From: Streptomyces coryli
GTDB taxonomy: Bacteria; Actinomycetota; Actinomycetes; Streptomycetales; Streptomycetaceae
Assembly: GCF_011044975.1 (NCBI RefSeq)
Contig: NZ_JAAKZV010000054.1
Span: 1-37,956, forward strand
Direction of reading: 5' to 3'
DNA length: 37,956 bases
Shown: one piece after another, positions 11,402 to 32,797 of the stretch
How the letters are laid out: each line of letters opens with the position of its first letter
Numbering within the stretch: position 1 is the stretch's first letter
Notes under the pieces: model-generated
The model's input: only the letters and a program-made list of their open reading frames with translations
Database searches by the model: none
Told to the model about the DNA's origin: nothing
Program-made: the position numbers and the translations under genes

Positions 11402-11402
11402 C

Positions 11403-17336: not shown

Positions 17337-18533
17337 TCACCGGGCGGCCAGCCGCCGATCGGCCGCTTCGGGCGCGTAGAGCTCCTCCACGACCATCTGC
17401 GCGGCCCCCAGCAACCCCGCTCGGGCACCCAGTGCCGCGGTGACCACGCTCAGATGAGCTGTGATCCGGGGCATCGCCCGGCGGTAGAGCTCCTCGCGCA
17501 CGCCGGCCAGATACGCCATGCCGACCAGATCGCCGGAGAGCATCAGCACGCCGGGGTTGAGCAGCGTGACGACCGTGCCCAGCACCTCGCCGAGCCGCCG
17601 CCCGGCCTCCTGCGCCAGCCGTACGGCCTCCGGCTCCCCGGCGGCGAGGAGCGCGCGCACATCCGAGCCGGACGCGGCCGGGACGCCGACGGCGGTCAGG
17701 TCGCGGGCCACGGCGCCGCCGCTCGCCACCGCGGCGAGGCAGCCGCGGGAGCCGCAGCGGCAGAGCGCGGCGGGGTCCGGCTCGGTGGAGTGCAGCCGCA
17801 CGTGGCCGATGTCGCCGGCGCCGCCGTCGATGCCGCGGTAGATCCGGCCGTCGACGACCATCCCGGCGCCGATCCCGGTCGCGGCCTTGACCAGCAGGAA
17901 GGCCGAGCAGTCCGGATAGCCGGCGCGCTGCTCCGCGTACGCCATCAGGTTGGCGTCGTTGTCGACGAACACGGGGAGCCGCACGGTGCCATCGGGAAGC
18001 CGCGCCGCCAGCGCGCGCCGCATCCCGTCGGGCACGTCGACGCCGTCCCACCCCGGCATGATCGGCGGCTGCACCACCCGCCCCGTCGCGACATCCACCG
18101 GACCCGGCACGCACAGCCCCACCCCGCACACCGCGCGATACGCCACCCCCGCCTCCGCCAGCAGCTCCGCGAACCACTCCCCCAGCCGGTCCAGCACCTT
18201 CTCAGGACCGTCCGCCACCACCAGCGGTCCGGTGTGCTCGGCGAGCACCCGCCCGGCCAGGTCCGTCACCGCCGCGTGGGCATGCCGGGTCCCGAGGTCG
18301 GCGACGAGCACCGCCGCATGCCCGGGGTCGAACTCCAGCCGCGCCGACGGCCGGCCACCGGCGGGCCCGCCGCCTGGCACCCCGCCGCCCTCGCGGATCC
18401 AGCCGGCCCCGAAGAGCGCCTCGAGCCGCTGCCCGACGGTCGACCGCGAAAGACCGGTGAGCAGCTGCAGCTCACCGCGGGTGGTCGCGCGGCCGGCCCG
18501 TATCAACGCCAGGATGCGACCTGCACTCGTCAT
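17337..18533 (-). CDS. ROK-family transcriptional regulator (module A)
   Basis: 398 aa. N-terminal winged HTH (about 1-65; RGELQLLTGLSRSTVGQRLEAL) as in XylR/NagC-type ROK repressors, then the ROK sugar-kinase-like domain with VADLGTRHAHAAVTDLAG, PGWDGVDVP, DNDANLMAYAEQ, GTGIGAGM-type phosphate loop (ATGIGAGMVVDGRIYRG) and the zinc motif C258-R-C260-G-x3-G-C265. The DNDAN Asp is kept. ATG 18533 has GAGGG 8 bases upstream. Divergent from the glycosidase pair at 18708, which it probably represses, its ligand being a sugar. It is clearly a paralogue of the ROK gene at 22849-24069. Confidence 0.93.
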   Translation of the reverse strand: MTSAGRILALIRAGRATTRGELQLLTGLSRSTVGQRLEALFGAGWIREGGGVPGGGPAGGRPSARLEFDPGHAAVLVADLGTRHAHAAVTDLAGRVLAEHTGPLVVADGPEKVLDRLGEWFAELLAEAGVAYRAVCGVGLCVPGPVDVATGRVVQPPIMPGWDGVDVPDGMRRALAARLPDGTVRLPVFVDNDANLMAYAEQRAGYPDCSAFLLVKAATGIGAGMVVDGRIYRGIDGGAGDIGHVRLHSTEPDPAALCRCGSRGCLAAVASGGAVARDLTAVGVPAASGSDVRALLAAGEPEAVRLAQEAGRRLGEVLGTVVTLLNPGVLMLSGDLVGMAYLAGVREELYRRAMPRITAHLSVVTAALGARAGLLGAAQMVVEELYAPEAADRRLAAR

Positions 18534-18577
18534 GTCTCGGCCCTCGCGTTCCTCGGCATGCTCCCTGCCCACGGGGT

Positions 18578-18673: not shown

Positions 18674-18698
18674 CCAGCAGACTACTCGGCGCTAGTTT
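18670..18698 (+). promoter_or_regulatory. Promoter of the module A glycosidase operon
   Basis: -35 TTGTCC at 18670-18675, 17-base spacer, -10 TAGTTT at 18693-18698. Transcription would begin about 18705-18708, at the ATG itself, so the message is probably leaderless; no ribosome binding site exists upstream of 18708. Both boxes are overlapped by the TAGTTYTGCTTGT repeats. Confidence 0.55.
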
Positions 18699-18708
18699 TG
18701 CTTGTTAA
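18679..18708 (-). promoter_or_regulatory. Promoter of the module A ROK gene
   Basis: Read leftward: -35 TTAACA (18708-18703), 18-base spacer, -10 TAGTCT (18684-18679). It faces and physically overlaps the rightward promoter, so one bound repressor could block both. The ROK message would have a leader of roughly 135-140 bases that includes the hairpin at 18578-18596. Confidence 0.5.
18693..18705 (+). promoter_or_regulatory. Candidate ROK operator, copy 2 (module A)
   Basis: TAGTTTTGCTTGT, continuing TAATG into the start codon at 18708. It contains the rightward -10 box and the leftward -35 box. The 11-base core TTTTGCTTGTT occurs again at 27457-27467 in the module B promoter region. Confidence 0.65.
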
Positions 18709-20072
18709 TGCTACGTAACTCCTCGGTGTCTTCCTCGCTTCCCGTCGCCGCCGCGGCGGCCAAAGTGCTGGAGGCGAACTGGACCGGCACCGCCACCGTC
18801 CCCTCCCGCGGCCTGTATCCGCACCAGTGGAGCTGGGACTCCGCCTTCATCGCGATCGGATTGCGGCATATCTCGGCGTTACGGGCCCGCCGGGAGCTCG
18901 AGACGCTGCTGGCCGCGCAGTGGGGGGACGGGCGGGTGCCGCACATCGTCTTCAACCCCGGTGTGCCCGCCGGTGCTTACTTCCCCGGGCCCGCCTTCTG
19001 GCGCTCCTCGACCGCGGGCGCCACGGCCGGGGCGCCGGGCGGCGCCGAGACCTCCGGCATCGTGCAGCCGCCGGTGCACGCGCTCGCCGCCTGGCTGGTG
19101 CACCGGGCGGATCCGGTCGGCTCGTGGCGGGCCGGGTTCCTGCCGCGGATCTATCCGCGGCTGCTCGCCTGGCACCGCTATCTGCGCGAGGAGCGCGACC
19201 TGGGCGGGCACGGTCTCGCGGCGTCGCTGCATCCCTGGGAGCCGGGGATGGACAACAGCCCCTGCTGGGACGCCCCGCTCGCCCGCGTCATCCCAGCCCC
19301 TGCCGACTCCTTCCGCCGCGCCGACCTGAGCCACGGCGCCGGGGCCGACCGGCCGACCGACCTCGACTACGGCCGCTACGTGGCGCTGGCCACCGCCTAC
19401 CGCGACCGCGGCTACGCCGACACCCCCAGCCTGAAGAGCCCCGCCCACCCCTTCGCGGTCGAAGACCCGGGCAGCAACGCGCTGTTCGCCGCCTCCGAGC
19501 ACGCGCTCGCCGAGATCGCCCTCGCGCTCGGCGCCGACCCGCAGCCGCATTTACGCCGCGCCGCCCGCATCACCAGGGCCCTCGCCGGGCGGCTGTGGTC
19601 GGCGGCGGACGGCCTCTTCCTCGTACGCGACCTGCGCGCCGACGCCCTCGTCCCGCAGCTGAGCGCGGCCGGGCTGCTGCCGCTGGCCGTGCCCGGGCTG
19701 CAGCCCGCTCTCGCCGCCGCCCTGGCCCGTACGGCCACGGGGCCGCACTTCGCCGCCGGGTCAGGGCTGATCCCGAGCTACGACCTCACCTCGCCCGCCT
19801 TTTCGCCGACCCGGTACTGGCGCGGACCCGCCTGGTTCAACGTCAACTGGCTGCTGGAGCGCGGCCTGCGGCTGCACGGCTACGCCGACCGCGCCGACGC
19901 CCTGCGCGCGGCGGCGGTCAGGACCGCGTACGCCACCGGCTTCGCGGAATACGCCGACCCGCACACCGGCGATCCGCGCGGCAGCCGCGACTTCTCCTGG
20001 ACGGCGGCGCTCACCCTCGACCTGCTCACGCCCCCCGACGACCGCGAACCACCTGGAGGCCCTCGCTCATGA
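18708..20072 (+). CDS. GH63-like (MGH1-like) glycoside hydrolase, module A
   Basis: 454 aa, no signal peptide, so cytosolic. (alpha/alpha)6-barrel glycosidase related to GH63 mannosylglycerate/glucosylglycerate hydrolases. Blocks: WSWDSAF (D44), GDGRVPHIVFNP, ETSGIVQPPVHALAAW, WEPGMDNSPCWD (W177-D182; the Asp is the family's likely general acid), YWRGPAWFNVNWL, and GFAEYADPHTG with E414 as likely base, then DFSWTAAL. Two leucines, codons 58 (18879-18881) and 282 (19551-19553), are TTA, the bldA-dependent codon; I found no other in-frame TTA in this window. ATG 18708 is likely leaderless. The stop overlaps the next gene (ATGA). Close paralogue of 29418-30761. Confidence 0.88.
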   Translation: MLRNSSVSSSLPVAAAAAKVLEANWTGTATVPSRGLYPHQWSWDSAFIAIGLRHISALRARRELETLLAAQWGDGRVPHIVFNPGVPAGAYFPGPAFWRSSTAGATAGAPGGAETSGIVQPPVHALAAWLVHRADPVGSWRAGFLPRIYPRLLAWHRYLREERDLGGHGLAASLHPWEPGMDNSPCWDAPLARVIPAPADSFRRADLSHGAGADRPTDLDYGRYVALATAYRDRGYADTPSLKSPAHPFAVEDPGSNALFAASEHALAEIALALGADPQPHLRRAARITRALAGRLWSAADGLFLVRDLRADALVPQLSAAGLLPLAVPGLQPALAAALARTATGPHFAAGSGLIPSYDLTSPAFSPTRYWRGPAWFNVNWLLERGLRLHGYADRADALRAAAVRTAYATGFAEYADPHTGDPRGSRDFSWTAALTLDLLTPPDDREPPGGPRS

Positions 20073-21973
20073 CCAGCGCGGAGCACCGGCACCTCTTCCA
20101 CGGCGGCACCTTCGCCGCGATCGGCCCGGCGGGCGACATCACGGGGGCCAGAGCGGCGCTGCCGGACGGCCTGTTCATCAGGGACGCCCGGCATCTGAGC
20201 CGCTGGCAGCTGACGGTGGACGGGGCGACGCCGGAGGTGCTGGTGCCGGCGGGCCCCGGCACCGCCCCGGCCGCGGAGTCGGTCCTGACCCCCGCGAGCA
20301 GCCGCACCGACCCGCCCGCGCACACCCTCTTCCGCGAGCTGCGGGTGACCGCGGGCGCGCTGCTCGACCGCATCCGCGTGGTCAGCAATCGCCCCGACGC
20401 CGAGACCGTGCGGCTCGCGCTGACGGTCGACGCCGACTTCGCCGACCAGTTCGAGCTGCGCGGCGACCATCGCTTGTACGAGAAGCCGGCGGCGGTGCGC
20501 GGGCGCGAAGTCCTGCCGGACGGCGTGGAGTTCCGCTACCGCCGCCGCGACTGGCACGCCCGTACCGTCATCACCGCCGACCCGCCGCCCGCCGCGGTCG
20601 AGGAGACCGGCAGCGGCGCCCGCCGGCTGGTCTGGGAGCTGGACCTGGAGCCGCACGGCTCCACCGAGCTCAACCTCCGCGCCGAGGCGCACCCCCACGA
20701 CGCCCCCGACCCGGCCCTGCTCCCGGAGTCCGGCTCCGCGCCTCCCGAGCTGCACGCCGCCGGCGCGCCGCCGCGGCTGGCCCGCGCCTGCCGCCAGGGC
20801 CTGGCGGACCTCTCCGGGCTGCTCATCCCGGCCCGCGGCCCGGACGACGAGGTGGTACGGGTCCCCGCCGCCGGAGTCCCCTGGTTCCTCGCGCTGTTCG
20901 GCCGGCACGCCCTGCTGACCTCGCTCTTCGCGCTGCCGCACTGGCCGGCCCCGGCGACCGCCACGCTGCTCGCGCTGGCCGCGACCCAGGCCACCGAGCA
21001 CGACCCGGCGCGCAGCGCCCAGCCCGGCAAGATCGTGCACGAGGTGCGGCACGGCGAGCTGGCGCACTTCGGCCAGGTCCCGTACGGCAGGTACTACGGC
21101 TCGGTGGACGCGACGCCGCTGTTCCTGGTGCTGCTCGGCGAGGTCACGGCCCGTACCGGCGACGACAAGCCGGCCCGGCGTCTTGAGCGGCACGCGCGGG
21201 CGGCGGTCGACTGGATGCTGCGGGACGGCGGTCTTGAGGACCGCGGCTACCTGTACTACCGCGCCGACGAGGGCGGGTTGGCCAACCAGAGCTGGAAGGA
21301 CTCCCCCGGAGCGATCTGCTACGCGAACGGCGAGCGGGCCCGCGGCGCGGTCGCCGCGGCGGCGCCGCAGGGGTACGCGTACGCGGCGCTGCGGCACGCG
21401 GCGCGGCTGGCGCGGACGATCTGGGACGACGAGGCGTGGGCGGACCGGCTGACGACGACCGCGGCGGCCCTCCGGGCCCGCTTCGTACGGGACTTCTGGC
21501 TGCCGGACGCGGACTTCCCGGCGCTGGCTCTCGACGGGGACGGGACGCCTGTCGACGCGCTCGGCTCGGACGCCGGGCATCTGCTGTGGTCGGGGCTGCT
21601 GGAGGCCGAGCAGGCGCGGCGGGTCGGACGGCGGCTGCTGGAGCCGGACTTCTTCTCGGGCTGGGGCGTGCGGACGCTGGCCGCGGGGCAGGCGGCGTAT
21701 CACCCGCTGTCGTACCACCGCGGAAGCGTGTGGCCGCACGACAACGCGATGCTCGCGCTGGGGCTCGCGCAGTACGGGATGGAGGAGGAGGCGCGGGTGG
21801 TCGCGAACGCCGTGGCGGACCTGGCGGCGGCATCGGACAACTACCGCCTCCCGGAGGTCATCGCGGGCTATCCGCGCACGGACGACGCGGGCCCGGTCCC
21901 GTATCCGCACGCCTGCTCACCGCAGTCGTGGTCGGCGGCGGCGCCGCTGGCGCTGCTCACGGCGGTGGCGTGA
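20069..21973 (+). CDS. Amylo-alpha-1,6-glucosidase-like glycosidase, module A
   Basis: 634 aa, cytosolic. N-terminal beta-sandwich of the glycogen-debranching type (about 8-200; LPDGLFIRDARHLSRWQLTVDG, LTVDADFADQFELRGD) and a C-terminal (alpha/alpha)6 barrel (PWFLALFGR, GKIVHEVRHGELAHFGQVPYGRYYGSVDATPLF, NQSWKDSPGAICYANG, YHRGSVWPHDNAM). GGAGG at 20055-20059 and an ATGA overlap couple it to the gene before. The paralogue in module B reads FGRD where this one reads FGRH280; that Asp is well kept in the family as I know it, so activity or specificity may be changed. True glycogen debranching is uncertain; a sugar-operon glycosidase role fits better. Confidence 0.87.
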   Translation: MTSAEHRHLFHGGTFAAIGPAGDITGARAALPDGLFIRDARHLSRWQLTVDGATPEVLVPAGPGTAPAAESVLTPASSRTDPPAHTLFRELRVTAGALLDRIRVVSNRPDAETVRLALTVDADFADQFELRGDHRLYEKPAAVRGREVLPDGVEFRYRRRDWHARTVITADPPPAAVEETGSGARRLVWELDLEPHGSTELNLRAEAHPHDAPDPALLPESGSAPPELHAAGAPPRLARACRQGLADLSGLLIPARGPDDEVVRVPAAGVPWFLALFGRHALLTSLFALPHWPAPATATLLALAATQATEHDPARSAQPGKIVHEVRHGELAHFGQVPYGRYYGSVDATPLFLVLLGEVTARTGDDKPARRLERHARAAVDWMLRDGGLEDRGYLYYRADEGGLANQSWKDSPGAICYANGERARGAVAAAAPQGYAYAALRHAARLARTIWDDEAWADRLTTTAAALRARFVRDFWLPDADFPALALDGDGTPVDALGSDAGHLLWSGLLEAEQARRVGRRLLEPDFFSGWGVRTLAAGQAAYHPLSYHRGSVWPHDNAMLALGLAQYGMEEEARVVANAVADLAAASDNYRLPEVIAGYPRTDDAGPVPYPHACSPQSWSAAAPLALLTAVA

Positions 21974-21982: not shown

Positions 21983-22852
21983 TCACCGGGCGGCGGCCTG
22001 CTCCAGCAGCTGCTGGATCCGCAGGCCGCGGCGGGCGTCCAGCTCCGTCGGGCGCCCGGAGCGCACCGCCGCGGCGAACTCGCGGCGCAGCACCGGCCAG
22101 CACTCCTCGTGGTCGAGATCCTCGGCGTTGTAGACCAGTTCGCCGCCGGGGCCGATGAGTTCGATGCGGTTACGGGCCCGGGGCAGCCGGACCGAGCCGG
22201 ACAGCGACGCCTGGCTGACGACGCCGTTCTCGTGCTCGCAGGTGAGCTCCACCCAGCGGCGCGGGTCGCCGGTGGCCCGTACCGTCGCGATCGGTCCGAC
22301 GGCGGCGTCGAGGAGGTCGAGCAGGTGCGGGCCGAGGTCGAGCAGCGCGCCGTGTTCGAGGCGCCAGGCGGTGGCCATCTCGCCGCCGAGGAAGGCGCCG
22401 TGGAGGTAGCAGGAGCGGGCGCCGGTCACCTCGAATCCGGCGGCCCTGGCGAGGAAGGTGCGGGTGGCCGGGTGGTAGCGCTTGGTCAGCACCAGCTGGG
22501 AGACGACGCCGTGTTCCGCCACCGCGTCCGCGACGGCGCGGGCGGCGGCCAGGTCGGGGCCGAGCGGCTTCTCCAGCAGCAGCGCCTTGCCCGCCTTGGC
22601 GGCGCGCGGCGCGAGCTCGGCCTGGACGGCCGGTGGCACGGCGAAGTCGACGGCCTCGCAGGTGTCGAGCAGCTCCTCGAAGGAGCCGGCGGCCGGGACG
22701 CCGTAGGGCGCGGCGACCTCGGCCGCGGCCTCGGGGCGGCGGGCCCAGACGGCGGCCAGCTCGGTCTCGGGGCCCGCGGCCAGCATGCGGGCGTGCATCG
22801 TACGGGCCCAGGGTCCGGCACCGATCAGGCCGACGCGTACCGGTGCGCTCAC
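21983..22852 (-). CDS. Gfo/Idh/MocA-family oxidoreductase
   Basis: 289 aa, short for the family (usually 330-380) but with both halves recognisable. Rossmann motif GLIGAGPWARTMH at 8-20, the LLLEKPLG signature with E94-K95-P96, and the C-terminal open-sheet domain (GGEMATAWRLEHGALLDLGPHLLDLLDAAVG). It probably oxidises or reduces a sugar hydroxyl with NAD(P). GTG 22852 overlaps the upstream ROK stop by four bases (GTGA) and has GAGGAG 6 bases upstream. It is the last gene of the leftward ABC operon, so it acts on the imported sugar or its product. Confidence 0.9.
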   Translation of the reverse strand: MSAPVRVGLIGAGPWARTMHARMLAAGPETELAAVWARRPEAAAEVAAPYGVPAAGSFEELLDTCEAVDFAVPPAVQAELAPRAAKAGKALLLEKPLGPDLAAARAVADAVAEHGVVSQLVLTKRYHPATRTFLARAAGFEVTGARSCYLHGAFLGGEMATAWRLEHGALLDLGPHLLDLLDAAVGPIATVRATGDPRRWVELTCEHENGVVSQASLSGSVRLPRARNRIELIGPGGELVYNAEDLDHEECWPVLRREFAAAVRSGRPTELDARRGLRIQQLLEQAAAR

Positions 22853-24069
22853 TGTGCTCTCCTCGCAGTTGCTCTGCTCGTCCCGCCGGCGGCGGTCAGC
22901 CGGGTGTCCGCCATGTCCGGGGCGTACAGGTGCTCCACGACCATGGCCGCCGCCCCGCTGAGCCCGGCGCGCTCGCCGAGACGGGCGGTGACAACCTCGA
23001 GGTTGGCGGTCGTGCGCGGCATCGCCCGCTGGTAGAGCACCTCGCGCAGGCCGGTGACGAAGTGCGAGCCGGCCAGGTCGCCCGCGATCATCAGCACGCC
23101 CGGATTGAGCAACGTGACGACGGTGGCGAGCACTTCGCCCACCCGCGAGCCGCCCTCGCGCGCGAGCCGCACCGCGTCCGGCTGGCCCGCGGCGAGGTGG
23201 GCGCTGACGTCGGACCCCGACGCGGTCGGCACACCGAGCTCGGTGAGCCGGCGGGCGATGGCGCGGCCGCTGGCCACGGCGGCGAGGCAGCCGTGCGAGC
23301 CGCAGGCGCAGAGCGCGTCCGCGCCGTCGTGCAGCCGGATGTGGCCGATGTCGCCGGCGCCGCCGTCGATGCCGCGGTAGATCTGTCCGTCGACCACCAC
23401 CCCGGCGCCGATGCCGGTGGAGGCCTTGATCAGGGCGAACGCCGAGCAGCCCGGATAGCCGGCGCGCTGCTCGGCGAAGGCCATCAGATTCGCGTCGTTG
23501 TCGACCAGGACCGGCACGTCCTCGGCGCCGCCGGCCTGCCGGGCGAAGGCCTGCTGCATCCGCTCGGGGATCGGGTAGCCGTCCCAGCCGGGCATGATCG
23601 GCGGCTGCACCACCCGCCCGGACGAGACCTCCACCGGGCCCGGCACCGAGAGGCCGATGCCGCACACCTCGCCGGCCTTGCGCCCGGCCTCGTCGAGCAA
23701 CGCGGCGAACCAGCCGCCCAGTTCGTCGAGCACCGCCTCGGGTCCTTCGCCGATACGCAGCGGGCCCAGCCGCTCCGCCAGCACCTCGCCCGCGAGGTCC
23801 AGGACGGCGGCGCGGGCGTGCCGGGTCTCCAGGTCGGCGGCGAGCACGACGGCGTGCCGGTCGTCGAACTCCAGCCGTACGGAGGGCCGCCCGCCCGTGG
23901 ACGTACCGGCGGCGTCGCGGATCCAGCCCGCGGCGTAGAGCGCGTCGAGACGGTGGCCGACGGTCGACCGGGACAGGCCGGTGGCCTGCTGCAGCTCACC
24001 GCGGGTGACCGCGGCCCCGGAACGGATGAGCGCGAGCAGATGCCCCGCACTCGCCTGATTGCCTGCCAC
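22849..24069 (-). CDS. ROK-family transcriptional regulator (module B)
   Basis: 406 aa. Winged HTH (RGELQQATGLSRSTVGHRLDAL), then the ROK domain with AADLETRHARAAVLDLAG, PGWDGYPIPE, DNDANLMAFAEQRAGYPGCS, STGIGAGVVVDGQIYRG and the zinc motif C254-x-C256-G-x3-G-C261. Long runs match the module A regulator, so the two are recent paralogues. GTG 24069 is preferred: GGGGAG just upstream and the HTH follows directly. It sits inside the ABC operon, 13 bases after the permease stop, an arrangement suited to autoregulation through the operator at 27457. Confidence 0.93.
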   Translation of the reverse strand: MAGNQASAGHLLALIRSGAAVTRGELQQATGLSRSTVGHRLDALYAAGWIRDAAGTSTGGRPSVRLEFDDRHAVVLAADLETRHARAAVLDLAGEVLAERLGPLRIGEGPEAVLDELGGWFAALLDEAGRKAGEVCGIGLSVPGPVEVSSGRVVQPPIMPGWDGYPIPERMQQAFARQAGGAEDVPVLVDNDANLMAFAEQRAGYPGCSAFALIKASTGIGAGVVVDGQIYRGIDGGAGDIGHIRLHDGADALCACGSHGCLAAVASGRAIARRLTELGVPTASGSDVSAHLAAGQPDAVRLAREGGSRVGEVLATVVTLLNPGVLMIAGDLAGSHFVTGLREVLYQRAMPRTTANLEVVTARLGERAGLSGAAAMVVEHLYAPDMADTRLTAAGGTSRATARRAQ

Positions 24070-24082: not shown

Positions 24083-24949
24083 CTAGCCCTTGTCCGCGCC
24101 GCTGGTGAGGCCCTCGGTGAGGAGGCGCTCGGCGGCAAAGAACAGCAGTACCACGGGAATCGTCAGAATGACGGAACCGGCCATCAGCACCGTCTTGGAG
24201 ACCTCGATGCCGTTCGACAGCTGGGCGAGGCCGAGGGAGACCGTCCACTTGTCGGGGTCGGCGACCAGGAACAGCAGCGCGAAGAGGAACTCATTCCACG
24301 CGATCATGAAGACGTACAGGCCGGTCGCCATCAGCGACGGCAGCGCGAGCGGCAGCACGACCCTGCGCACGGTCTGCAGCCGGCCGCAGCCGTCCAGCGC
24401 GGCCGCCTCCTCGATCGATTGCGGGATCGTGACCAGGTAGTTCTTCAGCATGTAGATCGATACGGGCAGGGTCTGGGCCACGTAGACGATCGCCAGGCCC
24501 ACCAGGCTCTTCGACAGGCCGGCCCTGGCGAACATCACGAACAGCGGCACGGCCAGCAGCGTCGCCGGGAACAGGTACACCGCCAGGAACATCGCGCTGA
24601 CCTGCCGCCCGCCGAAGAACTTCAGCCGGCTGATGGCGTACGAACCGGGCACCGCCGCGGCGAGGGTCAGCGCGACCGTGCCGAGGGAGACCAGCGCCGA
24701 GTTGAGCATGAACTGAAGGAAGCCCTGGCCGCCCTCGGAGGTGGGCTTGAGCACGTCCCGGTACGTCTGCGTGGTGAGGTCCTTCGCTCCCACCCAGATC
24801 GAGCCGGGGTCGACCAGCAGGGAGTCGATCGGCTTCAGGGACAGCACGATCATGTAGTAGAAGGGCACCAGCGTGATCAGCGCCAGGAAGGCGATGACCA
24901 CCCAGCGGGCGGCTCCGAAGAACCGCTCCTCGAACTGTGCGCGCGTCAT
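24083..24949 (-). CDS. Sugar ABC transporter permease (MalG type), module B
   Basis: 288 aa. Six predicted membrane segments; ITLVPFYYMIVLSLKP at the start and the EAA loop EEAAALDGCGRLQTVRRVVL followed by WNEFLFALLFL. The ATG shares one base with the stop of the previous permease (TGATG), with AGGAGG upstream. Forms the importer with 24949-25965 and the binding protein 25995-27404. No ATPase gene accompanies it. Confidence 0.94.
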   Translation of the reverse strand: MTRAQFEERFFGAARWVVIAFLALITLVPFYYMIVLSLKPIDSLLVDPGSIWVGAKDLTTQTYRDVLKPTSEGGQGFLQFMLNSALVSLGTVALTLAAAVPGSYAISRLKFFGGRQVSAMFLAVYLFPATLLAVPLFVMFARAGLSKSLVGLAIVYVAQTLPVSIYMLKNYLVTIPQSIEEAAALDGCGRLQTVRRVVLPLALPSLMATGLYVFMIAWNEFLFALLFLVADPDKWTVSLGLAQLSNGIEVSKTVLMAGSVILTIPVVLLFFAAERLLTEGLTSGADKG

Positions 24950-25965
24950 CAGGACTCCTCCTGCACCCTCTTGGCGAAGAACTTGAAGTAGAGGCCCAGC
25001 AGCACCATGAGGATCACGGCGAGCACCAGGGCCTGGGCGGCGGCCGCGCCCACGTCGTACCGCGAGGTGAGGAAGTCGTAGACCCGTACCGCCGCGACGT
25101 CGGTGCCGGAGCCGCCGCCGGTGAGCAGGTAGACGTCGTCGAACTTGTTGAACGACATGATGAACCGCAGCACGCACAGCAGCGCGATCACCGGCATCAG
25201 CTGCGGCAGCAGGATGTGCCGGAAGCGCTGGCTGATGGTGGCGCCGTCCACCGTGGCCGCCTCCTCCAGGCCGTCCGGCACAGCCTGCAGCCGGGCCAGC
25301 AGGAAGAGGAAGGCGAACGGGAAGTAGCGCCAGATCTCGAAGGCGATGACGGTAAGCAGCGCGAGCGGGATGTCGAAGTGCCAACCGAGCAGGCTGACTT
25401 CGTAGTCGCGGGTGGACAGGAAGGCGATCGGGTCGTCCCAGCCGAAGAGGCTCTTCCCCCACTCGTTGACGACGCCGTACTGCGGGCTGAGCGCCACTTC
25501 CCACACGAAGGCCATCGCGACGACCGGGGCCACGTACGGCAGCAGCATCGAGCCGCGCAGCAGCCCGCGGCCGCGGAAGGGGCGGCGCAGCGCGAGCGCC
25601 GCGACCAGGCCGAGCAGCACCGAGCCGACGGTCGAGCCGGCGGTGTAGATGAGCGTGGTGACCAGGCTGGACCAGAAGCCGGCCGAGCCGAAGACATCGG
25701 CGAAGTTCTCCAGCGTCCAGTTGCCGAAGACGCCCATGCCCTGGATGTCGACGAGCTTGGCGTCCTGGAACGCCAGCAGCACCGTCCACATGATGGGGAT
25801 CAGCACGACGACGAGGACCACCAGGAAGGTGGGCGTCACGAAGGCGAGTCCGGCGCGGTTCTCCCGCCGGCTCGCGGTCATGGGGCGGCGCTCGGGCCTG
25901 CCGCCGTCCGGGGGCTCGGTTCCGGGCGCCGGCTTACCGGCGGTCCGGCTGTGCGTTGTGGTCAT
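24949..25965 (-). CDS. Sugar ABC transporter permease (MalF type), module B
   Basis: 338 aa. A charged, Pro-rich cytoplasmic tail of about 38 residues, then MalF-type segments (AGLAFVTPTFLVVLVVVLIP, LLPYVAPVVAMAFVWEVAL) and the EAA loop EEAATVDGATISQRFRHILL. ATG 25965 has GAGG about 10 bases upstream; an in-frame ATG lies 28 codons downstream (MTASRRENRAG), which would also give a complete permease, so the tail is not certain. Confidence 0.92.
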   Translation of the reverse strand: MTTTHSRTAGKPAPGTEPPDGGRPERRPMTASRRENRAGLAFVTPTFLVVLVVVLIPIMWTVLLAFQDAKLVDIQGMGVFGNWTLENFADVFGSAGFWSSLVTTLIYTAGSTVGSVLLGLVAALALRRPFRGRGLLRGSMLLPYVAPVVAMAFVWEVALSPQYGVVNEWGKSLFGWDDPIAFLSTRDYEVSLLGWHFDIPLALLTVIAFEIWRYFPFAFLFLLARLQAVPDGLEEAATVDGATISQRFRHILLPQLMPVIALLCVLRFIMSFNKFDDVYLLTGGGSGTDVAAVRVYDFLTSRYDVGAAAAQALVLAVILMVLLGLYFKFFAKRVQEES

Positions 25966-25994: not shown

Positions 25995-27404
25995 CTACTG
26001 CAGGGACTGCTGGAGGGCGGCGACTTCTTCCTGGGCGTCGCGCGCGGCCTGCCGCGGCGGGATCTGGCCGCTCGTCATGGCGCTGATGGCCTTGGGGACG
26101 GGGAGTTCGCCGGTGGTGGCGCCGACGAGGGCGCCCTCGCCCTGGGCGATGCCCCAGCGCTTCATGTGCGTGACGCCGTCGGCGAGTTGGTCGAGCAGCC
26201 CGGGAGAGAAGATCTCGTCCATGGGCTTGAGCTGGTCGACGCCCATCTTGCTGGCGCGCCAGGCGTCGAGGTAGCGCTCCGGCTCCCGGGCCGTGCCGGG
26301 ACGGACCGGGATCTTGCCCTCCGGGGCCATGCCGAACCAGTCCTCGTAGCCGGAGCTCATCATGTACTGGATGAACTGCTTGGAGGCGTCGGTCTCGGCG
26401 GTCCTGGTGGTCAGCCACGAGGTGACCTCGCCGTACTGGACGGGCTTCTTGCCGTCCGGGCCCTTCATGGCCGTCACGATGCCGCTGTTCTTCGCCAGGA
26501 ACTCGCCCTTGCCCTCCTTGCACTGCGGGCAGCTGGGCAGCGCGTCCTTCCGCAGCCCGGCGAGCTCGTCGAGGATGAACGAGGACCAGATGATCATCGA
26601 GGAGCGGCCGGAGAAGTAGGTGGCGCGGGTGGAGTCCACGTTCTGGGTGCCGGGGGCGCCGTGCTTGCGGGCGAGGGTGTCGTACGCGGTGAAGGCGGTG
26701 CGGCAGGCCTTGGAGTCGAGGTCCACCTCCTTCTTGGCGTTGACCAGCTCGCAGCCGTTGGCCAGGGCCACGTTCTCGAAGCTCTGCTGGGTGAAGGGGT
26801 CGGCGGGGTCGGTGGCGGCCGAAATGCCGTCCCGGCCCTTGGTGTCCAGCTCGTCGGCCGCCTTCAGCAGCCGGTCGTACGTATCAGGGGCGGGCAGTCC
26901 CGCTTTGTCCAGCATGTCCTTGCGGTAGACGAGCAGCTGCAGCCAGGCGTCCGAGGGGACGCCGAGGCGGGTGCCGCCGTCGGTGGCGAGGTCGAGGGCG
27001 TTCTTGGTGAAGGTGTCCTCGCCGAGGCCGCGGATCACCTGCTCGGGCACCTCGGTGTTGAGCAGCCCGTTGCTGTGCATCTGCCAGGCCTGGCTGAGCG
27101 GGACGGCGCCGATGACGTCGGGGAGGTCCCCGGACGCGGCGGCCGACATGATCAGCTGCGGCAGCTGGGCCTCGTCCACGCCGACCAGTTCGACCTCGAT
27201 CCCGGTCTTCGCCTCGAAGCGGCTGATGACCTTCTTGGTGGCGGCGATGCGCGGAGGCAGGCTCTCCTCCGACCACACCGTGATCTTCCTGTCCGGCTTG
27301 GCAGGCCCGGTCTGTGCCGTCCCGCAGCCGGCCAGCACGGTCATGCCGAGGGCGGCCGCGAGGAAGGCCGCGGTCCTCGTCGACCGCAGATACCGCTTGC
27401 GCAT
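25995..27404 (-). CDS. Sugar ABC transporter substrate-binding lipoprotein, module B
   Basis: 469 aa. Sec lipoprotein signal MRKRYLRSTR with lipobox LAGC, lipidated at C27. CUT1-type family 1 binding protein: KITVWSEESLPPRI, FEAKTGIEVELVGV, SGDLPDVIGAVPLSQAW, RLGVPSDAWLQLLVYRKDML, and the Trp-rich C-terminal sugar site. A CPQC pair (SCPQCKEGKG) might form a disulfide, and a further Cys pair lies near residues 225-240. ATG 27404 has AAAGGA upstream. First gene of a five-gene leftward operon: binding protein, two permeases, ROK regulator, Gfo/Idh oxidoreductase. Confidence 0.94.
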   Translation of the reverse strand: MRKRYLRSTRTAAFLAAALGMTVLAGCGTAQTGPAKPDRKITVWSEESLPPRIAATKKVISRFEAKTGIEVELVGVDEAQLPQLIMSAAASGDLPDVIGAVPLSQAWQMHSNGLLNTEVPEQVIRGLGEDTFTKNALDLATDGGTRLGVPSDAWLQLLVYRKDMLDKAGLPAPDTYDRLLKAADELDTKGRDGISAATDPADPFTQQSFENVALANGCELVNAKKEVDLDSKACRTAFTAYDTLARKHGAPGTQNVDSTRATYFSGRSSMIIWSSFILDELAGLRKDALPSCPQCKEGKGEFLAKNSGIVTAMKGPDGKKPVQYGEVTSWLTTRTAETDASKQFIQYMMSSGYEDWFGMAPEGKIPVRPGTAREPERYLDAWRASKMGVDQLKPMDEIFSPGLLDQLADGVTHMKRWGIAQGEGALVGATTGELPVPKAISAMTSGQIPPRQAARDAQEEVAALQQSLQ

Positions 27405-27456: not shown

Positions 27457-27473
27457 TTTTGCTTGTTGACAAG
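27457..27473. promoter_or_regulatory. Candidate ROK operator (module B)
   Basis: TTTTGCTTGTTGACAAG. The first 11 bases equal the core of the module A operator; CTTGT-TG-ACAAG (27462-27473) is a 5-bp inverted repeat. It overlaps the -35 box of the rightward promoter and lies in the single gap between the two divergent operons, so it could control both. CCGCTT at 27453-27458 and AAGCGG at 27500-27505 form a further outer inverted repeat. Confidence 0.65.
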
Positions 27474-27493
27474 ACATAAGTCTGAGATACCTT
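27466..27493 (+). promoter_or_regulatory. Promoter of the rightward module B operon
   Basis: -35 TTGACA (27466-27471, perfect consensus), 16-base spacer, -10 TACCTT (27488-27493). The start of transcription would be near 27500, giving a leader of about 39 bases with CGGAG before the GTG at 27539. Confidence 0.65.
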
Positions 27494-27538: not shown

Positions 27539-28585
27539 GTGGAACGCGTCGTCCAGTTCACCGGCCCCCGCCAGGTCGAAGTCGCCGAGCACGAGAGCAG
27601 CGCGCTGCCCCCGGGACACCTGCGCGTACGCACCCGCTACTCCGGCATCTCGGCGGGCACCGAGCTCACCGCCTACCGCGGCACGAACCCGTATCTGACC
27701 CGCACCTGGGATGCGGACGCGCGGCTGTTCCGCGAGGGTGCGGCGGGCATGGAGTACCCGGTCGCGGGCTGGGGTTACTCCGAGGTCGGCGAGGTGCTCG
27801 AGGTCTCCCCCGAGCTCGCGGACACCCCCGGCATGCCCAAGGCGGGCGACCTGGTCTGGGGCATCTGGGGCCACCGCAGCGAGGGCATCGTCCCGGCGGA
27901 GCGCATGCTCGGCCACACCCTCCCGGAGGGCCTGGAGCCGCTCGCCGGCGCCTTCGCCCGGGTCGGCGCGATCGCATACAACGCCGTGCTCGCCGCGGGC
28001 ATCAATCTGGGCGAGGACGTCGCCGTCTTCGGCCAGGGCGTCATCGGCCTGCTCACCACCCGCCTCGCCCAGCTCAGCGGCGCCACCGTGACCGCCGTCG
28101 ACGCGCTCGACGGCCGGCTGGAGTGGGCCCGCAAGTACGGCGCCGAGCACACCCTCAACGCCCGTACCGACGCGGTCGCCGAGCGGATACGGGAAGCCAC
28201 CGGCGGCCGCGGCGCCGACACCGCCATCGAGATCAGCGGCGTCTATCCCGCCCTGCACGAGGCGCTGCGCTCGGTCACGGCCGACGGCCGCGTGGTCGCC
28301 TCCGGCTTCTACCAGGGCGACGCGACGGGCCTGCGGCTCGGCGACGAGTTCCACCACAACCGGGTGCAGCTCATCTGCTCCCAGATCGGCGGCGTGCCAC
28401 CGCACTTGGCGGGCCGCTGGACCGTCGAGCGGCTGCAGCGCACCTTCCTCGCGCTCGCCGCCGCCGGAAAGGTCGACGTCACATCGCTGGTCAGCCACGT
28501 GGTGCCGGTGGAAGAGGCGGCGGACGCCTACGTACTGCTGGACGAGCGGCCCGCGGACGCGCTGCAGATCGTCCTGGAATTCTGA
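27539..28585 (+). CDS. MDR-family (zinc-type) sugar dehydrogenase-like protein
   Basis: 348 aa. Medium-chain dehydrogenase/reductase with a GroES-like N-terminal half and a Rossmann half (FGQGVIGLLTTRLAQLSGATVTAVD near 163-190). The usual catalytic zinc Cys (GICGTD-type) is replaced: the block reads GISAGTE at 36-42. The GHE motif and the four-Cys structural zinc loop are also absent. It may therefore work without zinc, or bind it in another way, as in some BchC/sorbitol-dehydrogenase-like relatives. GTG 27539 follows CGGAG. First gene of the rightward operon with isomerase and glycosidases, so the substrate is probably a sugar or keto-sugar. Confidence 0.88.
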   Translation: MERVVQFTGPRQVEVAEHESSALPPGHLRVRTRYSGISAGTELTAYRGTNPYLTRTWDADARLFREGAAGMEYPVAGWGYSEVGEVLEVSPELADTPGMPKAGDLVWGIWGHRSEGIVPAERMLGHTLPEGLEPLAGAFARVGAIAYNAVLAAGINLGEDVAVFGQGVIGLLTTRLAQLSGATVTAVDALDGRLEWARKYGAEHTLNARTDAVAERIREATGGRGADTAIEISGVYPALHEALRSVTADGRVVASGFYQGDATGLRLGDEFHHNRVQLICSQIGGVPPHLAGRWTVERLQRTFLALAAAGKVDVTSLVSHVVPVEEAADAYVLLDERPADALQIVLEF

Positions 28586-28620
28586 CCACGCACCCAACGG
28601 GAAAGGCGTTCCGTACCACC

Positions 28621-29421
28621 ATGCTCAAGACCGCTGCCCAGGAACAGCTGCTGCCCGGCGAGACCCTCCAGCAGAGGTGGGAGTTCGCGCAGGCCGCCGG
28701 CTATGACGGCATCGAGCTGCGCGCCAAGGGCGACTTCCACTTCCGCGGCCGGCTGCCGGAGCTGAAGCAGGCGCTCGCGGACGGCGTCGTGATGCCGACC
28801 GTATGCGTCGAGATGCTGCACTTCTTCGGCGCCTTCGACGACGAGCTGCGGCGCGACGCGATCGAGCAGCTGAAGTCGCAGCTGTCGGTGATCGCCGAGA
28901 TCGGCGGACTCGGCGCCCAGACCCCGGCGTCGTACGGGATGTTCTCCCGCCGGCTGCCGCCGTTCGAGCCGCCCCGCGGCGAGGCCGAGGACCGCGAGGT
29001 GCTCCTCGCCGGGCTGACCGAACTCGGCGAGCACGCGAAGCGCGAGGGCGTGACGCTGTACCTGGAGCCGCTGAACCGCTACGAGGACCACATGGTCAAC
29101 CGCCTCGACCAGGCAGCCGACTTGATCCGCACCGTCGGCCTGGACTCGGTGAAGATCGGCATCGACAGCTACCACATGAACATCGAGGAGGCGGACCCGG
29201 CGGCGGCGATCCTGGCGCAGGCGCCCTGGATCGGCCACGCCCAGGTCTCCGACTCCAACCGCTTCCAGCCCGGCGCCGGCCACCTCGACTGGCAGGCCTG
29301 GATCGGCGCCCTCAAGGCCGCGGGCTACGACGGCTGGCTCGCCGCCGAATGCCGGCTGACCGGCGACCCGGCAGACGCCGTCCGCTCGGTCCCGGCGTTC
29401 CTGCGGAGGATGGGCGCGTGA
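28621..29421 (+). CDS. TIM-barrel sugar isomerase/epimerase
   Basis: 266 aa, the normal size of the xylose-isomerase-like TIM-barrel family (IolE/IolI, tagatose epimerase, hydroxypyruvate isomerase). The metal site is visible: E149 (YLEPLNRYEDH), D182 and H185 (GIDSYHMN), H206 (GHAQVSD) and E243 (AAECRL). It likely isomerises or epimerises a keto-sugar, next to an MDR and a Gfo/Idh oxidoreductase of the same cluster. ATG 28621 is the first plausible start; a purine-rich GGGAAAGG lies rather far upstream. The next gene starts within its stop (GTGA). Confidence 0.92.
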   Translation: MLKTAAQEQLLPGETLQQRWEFAQAAGYDGIELRAKGDFHFRGRLPELKQALADGVVMPTVCVEMLHFFGAFDDELRRDAIEQLKSQLSVIAEIGGLGAQTPASYGMFSRRLPPFEPPRGEAEDREVLLAGLTELGEHAKREGVTLYLEPLNRYEDHMVNRLDQAADLIRTVGLDSVKIGIDSYHMNIEEADPAAAILAQAPWIGHAQVSDSNRFQPGAGHLDWQAWIGALKAAGYDGWLAAECRLTGDPADAVRSVPAFLRRMGA

Positions 29422-30761
29422 CGGCACTCCTGCACTCCCTGGCCCTCCCGCTCACCCCCGCGGAGACCGACCGGCTGCGCCGCCACGCCGCGGCGGTGCT
29501 GCTGGGGAACTGGACGGGCGCGGCCACGGTCCCCTCCCGCACCCTCTACCCGCACCAGTGGAGCTGGGACTCGGCCTTCATCGCCATCGGCCTGCGGCAC
29601 CTGTCGGTACGCCGGGCGCAGCGCGAACTGGAGACGCTGCTGGGCGCGCAGTGGGGCGACGGCCGCCTCCCGCACATCGTCTTCAACCCGGCGGTGCCGC
29701 GCGACGCGTACTTCCCCAGCACCGACTTCTGGCGCTCCTCGACCGCGGGCGCCGCGGCCGGCGCACCGGCGCGGACGGAGACCTCCGGCATCGTCCAGCC
29801 GCCGGTGCACGCGCTCGCCGCCTGGCTGGTGCACCAGGCGGACCCGGCGGCCTCCGAACGCCGCGGCTTCCTGCGCCGCGCCTACCCGCGGCTCGCGGCC
29901 TGGCACGACTACCTCACCGGCAGCCGCGACCTCGGCGGCGCGGGCCTGACGGCGAACGTCCATCCGTGGGAGCCCGGCATGGACAACAGCCCCTGCTGGG
30001 ACGGCCCGCTGGCCCGCGTAGAGCCCGCCCCGCCGGATTCGTTCCGGCGCGCCGACCTGGTCCACGGCGACCCCGCCGACCGCCCGACGGACCTCGATTA
30101 CGGCCGCTACGTGAAGCTCGCCGCCGACTACCGCGACCGCGGCTACGCCGACACCGGCCACGCCTTCGCGGTCGAGGACCCGGCCGCGAACGCGCTGCTG
30201 ATCGCCTCCGAGTACGCCCTCGCCGAGATCGCGGCGGCGGCCGGCGCCGACCCGGCACCGCACTGGCACCGGGCCGACCGGCTGACGTCCGCGCTGGTCG
30301 ACCGCCTGTGGGACGCGGAGGGCGGCATCTTCCGCTGCCGCGACCTGATCTCCGGTGAACTGATCGACGAACGCAGCGTGTCGGGCCTGCTCCCGCTGAT
30401 CGTCCCCGGCCTCCCGGGCCGGGTGGTGGAGGGCCTGCTGGCGACGCTGTCCGGCGACCACTTCCGGCTCGGCGAGCTGCCGCTGGTCGCCTCGTACGAC
30501 CTGAAGGGCCGATCCTTCGACCCGGCGCGCTACTGGCGCGGCCCGGCGTGGTTCAACACGGCGTGGCTGATCGAGCGGGGCCTGCGGCTGCACGGTGCGG
30601 AGGACCGGGCGGACGCGCTGCGCGCGGCGGTGCTGGCGTGGGCGGGGCGGTCGGGCTTCGCGGAGTATGTGGACCCGTTCACCGGGAAGGCGCGCGGGAC
30701 GCGGGACTTCAGCTGGACGGCGGCGCTGGCGCTGGATCTGGCGGCGGAGACTTCCCGATGA
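29418..30761 (+). CDS. GH63-like (MGH1-like) glycoside hydrolase, module B
   Basis: 447 aa, cytosolic. Same blocks as the copy at 18708: WSWDSAF (D51), WEPGMDNSPCWD (W184-D189), YWRGPAWFNTAWL, GFAEYVDPFTG (E416) and DFSWTAAL, so the likely catalytic pair D189/E416 is intact. Nucleotide identity to the other copy is very high in places, for example around the WSWDSAF codons. No TTA codon is present; the leucines that are TTA in module A are CTG or differ here. GTG 29418 overlaps the isomerase stop (GTGA) with GGAGG at 29405-29409. Related enzymes hydrolyse mannosyl- or glucosyl-glycerate, but the substrate here is open. Confidence 0.88.
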   Translation: MTALLHSLALPLTPAETDRLRRHAAAVLLGNWTGAATVPSRTLYPHQWSWDSAFIAIGLRHLSVRRAQRELETLLGAQWGDGRLPHIVFNPAVPRDAYFPSTDFWRSSTAGAAAGAPARTETSGIVQPPVHALAAWLVHQADPAASERRGFLRRAYPRLAAWHDYLTGSRDLGGAGLTANVHPWEPGMDNSPCWDGPLARVEPAPPDSFRRADLVHGDPADRPTDLDYGRYVKLAADYRDRGYADTGHAFAVEDPAANALLIASEYALAEIAAAAGADPAPHWHRADRLTSALVDRLWDAEGGIFRCRDLISGELIDERSVSGLLPLIVPGLPGRVVEGLLATLSGDHFRLGELPLVASYDLKGRSFDPARYWRGPAWFNTAWLIERGLRLHGAEDRADALRAAVLAWAGRSGFAEYVDPFTGKARGTRDFSWTAALALDLAAETSR

Positions 30762-32797
30762 CGGCCGCCGACCGCGTACTCCTGGTGCGGGACGGCACGT
30801 TCGCCGCGCTGACGGCGGGCGGCGGCATCACCGGCCGCCGGGGCACGTCCCCCGACGGCCTTTTCGTGCGCGACGCCAGGCACCTGAGCCGGTGGGAGCT
30901 GACGGTAGACGGCGCGGAGCCCGCAGTGCTGGTGCCGGCGGGCTCCGCGACTCCAGCGACCTGCGTGCTGACACCGGAGGGCGTACGAGACCAGCCGGCG
31001 GGCTACGCCGTCTTCCGCGAACAGGCGGTCGCCTCGGGCTTGTTGCTGGAACGGCTGCGGCTGGTCAGCAACCGCCCGGGCGGGATCACGGCGCGGCTGG
31101 AGCTGACAGTGGACGCGGATTTTGCGGACCAGTTCGAGCTGCGGGCGGATGGGCGTACATACGGCAAGGGGGACGCGGTCCGGACGGCGGAAGTCCGGGC
31201 GGATGGAGTCGAGTTCAGCTATCGGCGGGGCGAGTGGTACTCCCGTACGAACATGACCGCCGCACCGGCACCGGATGAGGTGACGACGGAGGGCACGGCC
31301 CACCGCCTGGTCTGGGAACTGGCGCTACCCGCACACGGCAGCACGGAGCTGGCGCTACGGGTGGAGGCCCGCCCGGACGGCGGCGGGGAGCCGTCGAAGG
31401 CGGCCACTCCGGGTGAGGCGGCAGCCGAACTGTCCGCTGACACCATGGCGTTCACGGGGAGAGCGGGGCAAGCCACGCCAAACCCAGCCCGACCGGCCGA
31501 TCCAGGCCAAGCCACGCCAAACCCAGCCCGGCCGGCGCTTGAGGCCATCCGCGCGGAGCGCGGATTCGGCGACGCACAGCGCAACGCGCTATCGCACGCC
31601 TGCGCGCAAGGACTCACCGACCTGGCGACCCTCCGTATACCCGCCACCGGCCCCAAGGGCGAACCCCTCAAACCCCCCGCCGCCGGCATCCCCTGGTTCC
31701 TCACCCTCTTCGGCCGCGACTCCCTCCTGTCCTCCCTCTTCGCCCTCCCGTACCGCCCCGAACTGGCCGAACACACCCTCCTCACCCTCGCCGCCACCCA
31801 AGGCACCACCTACGACCCCTTCCGCGGCGAACAGCCAGGCCGCATCGTGCACGAGATCCGGCACGGCGAGCTCGCCCGCTTCCGCCAGGTCCCATACGGC
31901 CGTTACTACGGCTCCGTTGACGCGACGCCGCTCTTCCTGGTGCTGCTGCACGAGCACCGGGACCTCGCCAAGCGGCTGGAGCCGCAGGCCCGCGCCGCCA
32001 TCGACTGGATGTTCAAGGACGGTGGCCTGGCCGAACACGGCTGGCTCGTCTACGACCCCGACCCGAACGGCCTGGTCAACCAGAACTGGAAGGACTCCGA
32101 AGGCGCCATCTGCTTCGCCGACGGCACCCAGGCAGCCGGCCCGATCGCCGTGGCCGAGGCACAGGGATACGCATACGACGCCCTCGCCCGCACGGCCCAA
32201 CTGGCCCGCGAGGTCTGGCAGGACACGGCATGCGCCGACCGCCTCGACACCGCGGCGGCGGACCTGCGCACCCGCTTCGTACGGGACTTCTGGCTGCCGG
32301 AAGCGGACTTCCCCGCACTGGCCCTGGACGGTACGGGCCGCAAAGCCGACGCCCTGGCCTCGGACGCGGGCCATCTGCTGTGGTCCGGCATCCTCGACCA
32401 GGCGCGCGGCGAGCGCGTCGGCCGCCGCCTCCTGCGGGACGACTTCTTCACCGGCTGGGCCATCCGCACGCTGGCGGCGGAACAGACCCCGTACCACCCG
32501 CTGTCGTACCACCGGGGCAGCTGCTGGCCGCACGACAATGCGGTGATCGCGCTCGGCCTGGCCCGCTACGGGCTGTACGACGAGCTGCTCACGCTGACCC
32601 GCGGCCTGCTCGACACGGCCGCACACCACGACTGGCGACTGCCGGAGGTCCTCGCCGGCTACAGCCGTACCGACCATCCGGCCCCGGTCCCGTACCCGCA
32701 CGCCTGCTCCCCCCAGGCGTGGGCGGCGGCGACGCCACTGGCGCTGCTCACCGCGCTCACCGGGCGGCCCGCAGACTCCGGGGGCGGCGGGGCCTGA
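30758..32797 (+). CDS. Amylo-alpha-1,6-glucosidase-like glycosidase, module B
   Basis: 679 aa, cytosolic. Debranching-type N-terminal domain (SPDGLFVRDARHLSRWELTVDG, VDADFADQFELRADG) and (alpha/alpha)6 catalytic barrel (PWFLTLFGRD with D321, GRIVHEIRHGELARFRQVPYG, NQNWKDSEGAICF, YHRGSCWPHDNAV). It is 45 residues longer than the module A copy; the extra part is a linker between the domains that holds a 13-residue direct repeat (GQATPNPARP...) from an inserted DNA repeat. Start ATG overlaps the previous stop (ATGA). Last gene of the rightward operon. Confidence 0.88.
   Translation: MTAADRVLLVRDGTFAALTAGGGITGRRGTSPDGLFVRDARHLSRWELTVDGAEPAVLVPAGSATPATCVLTPEGVRDQPAGYAVFREQAVASGLLLERLRLVSNRPGGITARLELTVDADFADQFELRADGRTYGKGDAVRTAEVRADGVEFSYRRGEWYSRTNMTAAPAPDEVTTEGTAHRLVWELALPAHGSTELALRVEARPDGGGEPSKAATPGEAAAELSADTMAFTGRAGQATPNPARPADPGQATPNPARPALEAIRAERGFGDAQRNALSHACAQGLTDLATLRIPATGPKGEPLKPPAAGIPWFLTLFGRDSLLSSLFALPYRPELAEHTLLTLAATQGTTYDPFRGEQPGRIVHEIRHGELARFRQVPYGRYYGSVDATPLFLVLLHEHRDLAKRLEPQARAAIDWMFKDGGLAEHGWLVYDPDPNGLVNQNWKDSEGAICFADGTQAAGPIAVAEAQGYAYDALARTAQLAREVWQDTACADRLDTAAADLRTRFVRDFWLPEADFPALALDGTGRKADALASDAGHLLWSGILDQARGERVGRRLLRDDFFTGWAIRTLAAEQTPYHPLSYHRGSCWPHDNAVIALGLARYGLYDELLTLTRGLLDTAAHHDWRLPEVLAGYSRTDHPAPVPYPHACSPQAWAAATPLALLTALTGRPADSGGGGA
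31469..31550 (+). repeat. Streptomyces-type repeat inserted in a coding region, partly doubled
   Basis: Two copies of a 23-base unit starting CAAGCCACGCCAAACC at 31469-31491 and 31508-31530, exactly 39 bases (13 codons) apart, so the frame is kept. The second copy runs on into GGCCGGCGCTTGAGGCC. From memory, AAACCCAGCCCG...GGCGCTTGAGG is the start of a repeat usually found between Streptomyces genes. The module A paralogue lacks it. Confidence 0.7.

Follow-up and report, generated by a model that had tools for sequence, protein, structure and literature searches.

The window analyzed here, a stretch of 37,956 nucleotides from Streptomyces coryli (contig NZ_JAAKZV010000054.1, assembly GCF_011044975.1), harbors two adjacent gene modules, A and B, each of which contains a ROK-family regulator, a GH63-type glycosidase (GH) and a debranching-type glycosidase (GDE) according to the Pfam matches of the window proteins. 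Both are located between the genes for PPDK (14197..16959, − strand) and DusB (32823..33965, −), which adjoin slot-type modules in other loci and represent the left and right flanks of the usual module A position. Module A consists of ROKA (17337..18533, −; Pfam ROK 8.9e-45), GHA (18708..20072, +; MGH1-like_GH, PF22422, 3.5e-114) and GDEA (20069..21973, +; GDE_N_bis + MGH1-like_GH, PF14742 + PF22422). Module B is composed of two divergent gene sets. The leftward set (all −) ranges from a substrate-binding protein (SBP; 25995..27404) via two importer permeases with BPD_transp_1 domains, PermA (24949..25962, start approximate) and PermB (24083..24949), and the regulator ROKB (22849..24069, start approximate; Pfam ROK 3.8e-47) to a Gfo/Idh/MocA protein (GFO; 21983..22852; GFO_IDH_MocA, PF01408). 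The rightward set (all +) comprises a zinc-type dehydrogenase (ZnDH; 27539..28585), a predicted TIM-barrel epimerase (TIM; AP_endonuc_2; 28621..29421), the MGH1-like glycosidase GHB (29418..30761) and GDEB (30758..32797; PF14742 + PF22422). A first-pass annotation of this DNA had proposed two paralogous three-gene modules, and protein alignments bear this out with amino acid identities of 69% for the ROK pair (395 columns), 69% for the GH pair (417 columns) and 58% for the GDE pair (677 columns). The identical blocks that it had named in the GH and ROK pairs are present, as is the ATGA coupling between GHA and GDEA. The importer, the dehydrogenases and an "isomerase" are indeed restricted to module B, but the last label needs correction, since the nearest relative YcjR is a 3-keto-glycoside 4-epimerase.

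The GH63-like assignment of the two glycosidases can be refined to the mannosyl/glucosylglycerate-hydrolase branch of the family, in which GHB was placed by its NCBIfam GluglyHdase score and its matches to solved chains. The nearest of these are 2z07 from Thermus (2e-75) and 6g3n (1e-70), and both window proteins share full-length homology with the glucosylglycerate hydrolase (GgH) of Mycolicibacterium hassiacum, MhGgH, and the mannosylglycerate hydrolase of Thermus (GH63). They differ from MhGgH in GluglyHdase (NF047898) scores of 357.3 bits for GHA and 354.6 bits for GHB, below the curated cut-off of 550, and differ from both enzymes in the embedding of the module B gene among genes for import and epimerization. 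The substrate and catalytic residues of MhGgH are described in the accessible part of PMC6608630 as conserved in all characterized mannosylglycerate hydrolases. In our alignment the catalytic Asp182 and Glu419 are retained in 98/98 rows, the two of the window included, and the same holds for Y36, W40, W42, D43, Y88, Q115, G180, R216, Y222, Y375 and W376, among them the glycerate-contacting Y36, W40, Y88, R216 and Y375. Such conservation of the glycerate site is not automatic, because in a wider set of 40 rows (about 30 genes, some of them twice) Tyr222 has been lost in seven genes at 45–49% identity and Arg216 as well in four of them. Ten rows of the wider set at 38–42% identity keep Arg216 and Tyr222, and nine of these ten also Gln434. 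Among the GH63-type relatives at 45–48% identity, loci L166/L176, L180, L182 and L183 lack Tyr222 as well as Arg216, the latter position being gapped in L180, and their products probably have another specificity. The position of the glucose-contacting Gln434 is occupied by Phe in 98/98 rows; it is Gln in wild-type MhGgH (5ohc) and Phe in 2z07 and 6g3n, the latter of which looks like a Q434F variant of MhGgH. Phe434 implies that the preferred hexose of GHA and GHB may not be glucose. The residue pattern thus points to a hexosyl-glycerate as substrate but does not reveal which hexose is preferred.

The debranching-type partners are most similar to archaeal enzymes. The nearest solved chain of GDEB is the archaeal amylo-1,6-glucosidase 7vma (2e-78), and 7vma is also the first fold match of the AlphaFold model of GDEA (mean predicted local distance difference test score 78, predicted template modeling score 0.64), which was used for the fold only, given a TM value of 0.56, a root-mean-square deviation of 14 and an unsure domain packing. 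Common to the window proteins and this archaeal-type glycogen debranching enzyme of Thermococcus are a homologous 6-hairpin catalytic domain and a GDE_N_bis domain in front of it, whereas the coupling to a GH63-type gene distinguishes the modules described here. The Asp of the NWKDS motif is kept in 81/81 rows and the Glu of LPE in 80/81, with a gap in the remaining one. The FGRD motif of 7vma and GDEB reads FGRH in 10/81 rows, GDEA among them, but not in locus L120, which harbors the nearest relative of GDEA, so that FGRH arose twice or reverted. The Asp of FGRD is presumably the analog of the −1 subsite aspartates of the clan and, by this analogy, GDEA may take a different sugar through FGRH. 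Its putative equivalence with Asp43 of MhGgH is by analogy too, as a GDE–GH profile-profile alignment matched only the C-terminal part (probability 39). A GDE gene was not found beside the GH gene in the distant importer loci L169, L173, L174, L175 and L186, which suggests that GDE is a later addition to the GH modules; the distant class (L169–L186) is taken to lie outside Streptomyces by distance only.

The closest characterized equivalent of module B is the ycjMNOPQRSTU(V) cluster of Escherichia coli, the D-guloside/D-glucoside 3-keto pathway. Relatives of YcjN, YcjO, YcjP, YcjQ and YcjR are present with 27–39% identity. The three importer proteins are reciprocal best matches among the proteins compared (SBP to YcjN, 29%, E-value 5e-36, with YcjN chain 8vqk as best solved relative; PermA to YcjO, 39%, 2e-44; PermB to YcjP, 36%, 1e-50). 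ZnDH matches YcjQ across its full length (27%, 1e-34), and so does the TIM protein with YcjR (37%, 2e-55), whose structure 6wn6, named 3-keto-D-glucoside 4-epimerase, is its best solved relative (3e-46). GFO belongs to the same superfamily as YcjS with a weak match (25%, 1.6e-9). According to the accessible part of PMC11543891, YcjQ and YcjS are dehydrogenases, YcjR is a 3-keto-glucoside isomerase, YcjM is a glucosyl-glycerate phosphorylase and YcjT a kojibiose phosphorylase. The E. coli cluster also includes a gene for a glucosylglycerate phosphorylase. Pfam searches and the comparison with the E. coli cluster revealed no YcjM- or YcjT-type phosphorylase among the module genes, which instead encode the two hydrolases, GH63-type and GDE. 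An ATPase is missing among the module B genes, and ycjV is annotated as a pseudogene in E. coli. Further differences are the ROK regulator in place of the YcjW repressor and the divergent layout of two gene sets. Judged by these protein comparisons, module B corresponds to a diverged ycjNOPQRS set, with five clear genes and a weak YcjS. The earlier statement that no characterized system has this make-up holds for the exact gene set, but a clear relative exists in ycjNOPQRS. The combination of GH, importer, ZnDH and TIM recurs in the distant loci L169, L173 and L174. In L174 (2212–12904) a ROK gene completes the cluster, which additionally encodes a further ZnDH-type protein and a YcjS-like protein and has an open reading frame (ORF; 6662–7549) of TIM-type appearance.

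The two modules of the window are connected by a 23-bp operator-like motif, TTTTGCNTGTTNANNNNACRTAA, with exact matches before GHA (18696..18718, +) and in the gap that separates the leftward and rightward sets of module B (27457..27479, +), where it overlaps a TTGACA box. These are its only two places in the window with up to two mismatches allowed, compared with none in 100 shuffles. Because the ATG at 18708 falls within the motif, the GTG at 18726 is the likelier start of GHA. A usable intergenic stretch was available from 94/104 loci, and a shorter core of the motif occurs in 49/57 stretches of the three-gene type, 19/33 of the full type and 0/4 of the importer type, in comparison with 4/9400 mononucleotide shuffles. 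A whole-genome search of ten genomes retrieved the site in nine, twice in each of five two-module genomes and once in the four others, and not in G004. It is present in 179/392 Streptomyces genomes, with zero occurrences of a reversed control among the matches listed. The cross-table of 198 genomes contains 90 with GH and site, 12 with GH but no site, none with the site alone and 96 with neither. Sites exceed the GH count in G032 (three sites, two GH genes) and in G144, G423 and G593 (two sites, one GH match each). The extra sites of the last three belong to GH-less slot modules (L199 in G144, L200 in G423), which carry ROK and GDE genes without a GH match, and to two full modules cut by contig ends (L201 and L202 in G593). 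The third site of G032 (L197, 7784) is perfect and followed by the apparent first codons of a ZnDH gene but no further module genes, and it is probably a module remnant. Genome G075 carries two sites about 2.4 kb apart, at 5525 (+) and 7944 (−) of L198, the latter lying in the GDE region of the only module there; the other double sites among the matches listed lie on separate contigs or are separated by megabases. In the eight genomes with two or three sites that were inspected (G594, G600 and G687 by coordinates only), the sites other than those just described lie near a GH match.

The ROK domain (PF00480) is found in ROKA and ROKB; HTH_24 scores just above its cut-off for ROKB, and no helix-turn-helix model matches ROKA, the aligned N-terminus of which is similar. 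As members of the ROK family they resemble Streptomyces regulators such as RokB, whose site at PnovH is TTTGTTC-N11-GAACAAA in the accessible part of PMC4856308. The candidate site reported here has another sequence and is associated with the modules. It resembles a dedicated ROK operator, to which the regulators would bind. The presence of an identical 23-bp site in A and B makes their shared induction likely, in line with the first-pass annotation.

The genomic distribution of the modules was established by a scan of species genomes with at least 573 relatives of the GH pair, of which 80 loci were kept, all from Streptomyces or Streptomycetaceae. Together with 18 fetched loci they add up to 98 classified loci, with a few genomes present twice, and a locus was assigned to the slot class if PPDK or dusB was seen, one flank being sufficient. 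Three-gene ROK–GH–GDE modules with PPDK and/or dusB adjacent account for 51/98 loci and full modules elsewhere for 28/98, followed by full modules in the slot (3/98), importer types in the slot (3/98), partial types (seven in the slot, four outside) and three-gene modules whose contigs measure about 5 kb (2/98). The slot is the normal position of module A, and module B is the unusual resident there. This neighborhood comparison across Streptomyces documents that A is the common PPDK–dusB slot module and that the B type is normally located elsewhere. At least six genomes (G032, G073, G099, G123, G163 and G206) hold one module of each kind, always on separate contigs, and a tandem A–B arrangement was absent from the six two-module genomes examined. 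A GH match was retrieved from 103/199 sampled Streptomyces genomes in a survey that scored eight candidates per genome and may thus miss second copies. A YcjR-type gene is present in 20/199, all of them among the 103 GH-bearing genomes. The slot loci L019, L039 and L187 harbor ROK, importer and GH genes without a match to dehydrogenase, epimerase or GDE, and none of them has the motif core.

Taken together, we interpret the two modules as one ROK-controlled regulon for glycosides of the hexosyl-glycerate type, with A of the slot kind and B of the complete kind, a reading in which we place slightly more belief than doubt. Gene content, lineages, motif distribution and conserved residues are established from the sequences, and from these we infer the substrate, the order and direction of the steps, and repression. 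In the proposed pathway the glycoside would be imported by the YcjNOP-like importer of module B with an ATPase encoded elsewhere. Its hexose would be reworked at C3/C4 by oxidation, 4-epimerization and reduction through the YcjQ-, YcjR- and YcjS-like proteins. Outer (1,6-type) glucosyl units would be removed by GDEB inside the cell, after which inverting hydrolysis by GHB would release hexose and glycerate from the hexosyl-glycerate. A second set of variant enzymes for this cleavage would be supplied by module A, which might in addition act on endogenous glucosylglycerate, while the ROK repressor would leave the shared site in the presence of the sugar. Several observations weigh against this interpretation. 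The motif is missing in 12 of the 102 GH-bearing genomes of the cross-table, its core in 14/33 intergenic stretches of the full type, and one of the two G075 sites falls within the GDE region. Both GH proteins stay under the GgH equivalog cut-off, which none of 101 Streptomyces genomes exceeds (0/101), and share Phe at the Gln434 position with 2z07. GDE may not depend on GH, given the slot modules L199 and L200. Finally, GFO resembles YcjS only weakly, neither of the two E. coli phosphorylases has a counterpart in module B, and the accessible part of PMC11543891 yielded no ligand of YcjN.

The supply of module A is the point at which a competing explanation has to be considered. The first-pass annotation had assumed that A is fed by the importer of B, which is possible in S. 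coryli but not general, since 83 of the 103 GH-bearing genomes lack a match to the YcjR-type gene of module B and no importer of the module B type was found within the fetched flanks of the three-gene loci. Module A might instead serve the turnover of the cell's own glucosylglycerate independently of that importer, comparable to the mycobacterial GgH after nitrogen starvation (PMC6608630, accessible part), and B would then be a separate uptake pathway linked to A by common ancestry and the operator. In line with such a role, a gene of the glucosyl-3-phosphoglycerate synthase (GpgS) type scores above the cut-off in 197/199 Streptomyces genomes but only in 1/14 control genomes. This near-universal gene is, however, also present in 94 or more of the 96 genomes without a GH match, the ROK regulator and operator shared with B suggest a response to the same sugar, and a second importer near PPDK could feed A. 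We therefore rate turnover of the endogenous compound as unlikely, albeit as a scenario to be reckoned with. The second importer, which is unrelated to that of module B, is part of the window on the far side of PPDK: positions 7746–9356 (−) and 10073–13156 (+) harbor a 6-hairpin glycosidase (MGH1-like_GH 68.7 bits and a GH65 C-terminal piece) in the neighborhood of this sugar importer. The substrate-binding protein of the importer (SBP2) is also encoded near PPDK in L048, L067, L121, L132 and L134, and this importer might feed module A.

A general system for alpha-glucans or for inositol/cyclitol glycosides, in which GDE would debranch oligosaccharides of the maltodextrin type or the dehydrogenases and the TIM protein would act as IolG, IolM and IolO on an inositol moiety, is decidedly improbable. 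The archaeal glycogen-debranching enzyme is indeed the nearest relative of GDE, and the best-scoring NCBIfam names are IolM, IolO and IolG, but the Iol scores remain far under their cut-offs, the TIM protein fits YcjR better than TM0416 (E-values 3e-46 versus 7e-21) and the glycerate pocket is conserved. A Thermotoga-type inositol pathway was rejected on the basis of scores of 58.1/355 for IolG, 78.6/450 for IolM and 124.5/300 for IolO relative to the curated cut-offs.

The evolutionary origin of the two modules was investigated with a concatenated ROK+GH+GDE tree (41 rows, midpoint root) based on 40 picked loci of the 98, from which L052 was dropped for want of a GDE gene; L124 and L131 were left out of the trees, being taken as the same records as L018 and L011. 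Module A of the window pairs with L120 (100/99) within the group of the PPDK–dusB slot, and module B groups with the full modules located elsewhere (99/97). The same affiliation emerges from a tree of the importer, ZnDH and TIM proteins with five distant loci as root, in which module B joins the "elsewhere" group (100/99) and is separate from the slot-resident full modules. A sister relationship of A and B is rejected by the GDE tree alone (approximately unbiased test, p-AU 4.7e-7) and compatible with GH alone (p-AU 0.108) and ROK alone (0.278). The copies are kept apart by the concatenated and GDE trees; the single GH and ROK genes do not enforce this separation. The agreement at fourfold sites equals the shuffled level for GDEA–GDEB (0.45 and 0.45) and is slightly higher for GHA–GHB (0.61 versus 0.51) and ROKA–ROKB (0.57 versus 0.48). 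Because of this small excess, limited exchange between the A and B copies of GH and ROK is possible. Gene conversion between GHA and GHB was not shown; the scan gave p 0.0013, yet cross-genome controls were equally low (0 of 1500 for GDEA–L006, 0.0013 for GDEA–L001). A self-comparison of the window (BLASTN, E-value 1e-6) yielded five matches, three of which correspond to the ROK, GH and GDE gene pairs; the other two are short and connect 143–784 with 1417–2055 outside the modules. From these trees, A and B are most likely two old paralogs and not local duplicates. The claim that module A was copied from part of B in this lineage, or the reverse, is scarcely credible, since the adjacency, the 58–69% identity and the like gene order of the modules, the tolerance of GH and ROK for sisterhood and their excess of fourfold identity are opposed by the high support that parts A from B in the concatenated tree, the GDE test, the counterpart of A in the common slot module, the short operator-to-gene spacer that A shares with L120 and the affiliation of the importer, ZnDH and TIM genes of B with the "elsewhere" lineage.

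Two further features of the window lie outside the modules. ARAGORN predicts a tRNA-Val(cac) at 13490–13580 (−) inside an ORF without Pfam match (13230–14099); either the tRNA or the ORF is probably a false call. An HbpS-like haem-degrading family protein is encoded at 6070–6615 (−).

Within the favored reading of a ROK-controlled hexosyl-glycerate regulon, we put forward, quite tentatively, a route that has not been described before. A non-gluco hexosyl-glycerate, e.g. gulosyl-glycerate or another C3/C4-epimeric form, would be imported, the intact glycoside converted to the gluco form by 3-keto C4 epimerization and then hydrolyzed by the glycerate-specific GH63-type enzyme, with a paralogous hydrolase module, whose GDE has an altered pocket residue (FGRH), under the same operator. 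Secretion of glucosylglycerate by Streptomyces caelestis is mentioned in a title of the reference list of PMC11009771. A literature search that did not extend to most subscription papers retrieved no assigned substrate for these Streptomyces GH63-type enzymes, and roughly one in two of the Streptomyces genomes sampled (103/199) carries at least one of them. Their link to hexosyl-glycerates and to the 3-keto epimerization pathway of E. coli provides a specific and cheap test, and the operator-like site is a ready reporter for the discovery of the inducer. The comparison may also offer a lead to the substrate on which the ycj system of E. coli acts in nature.

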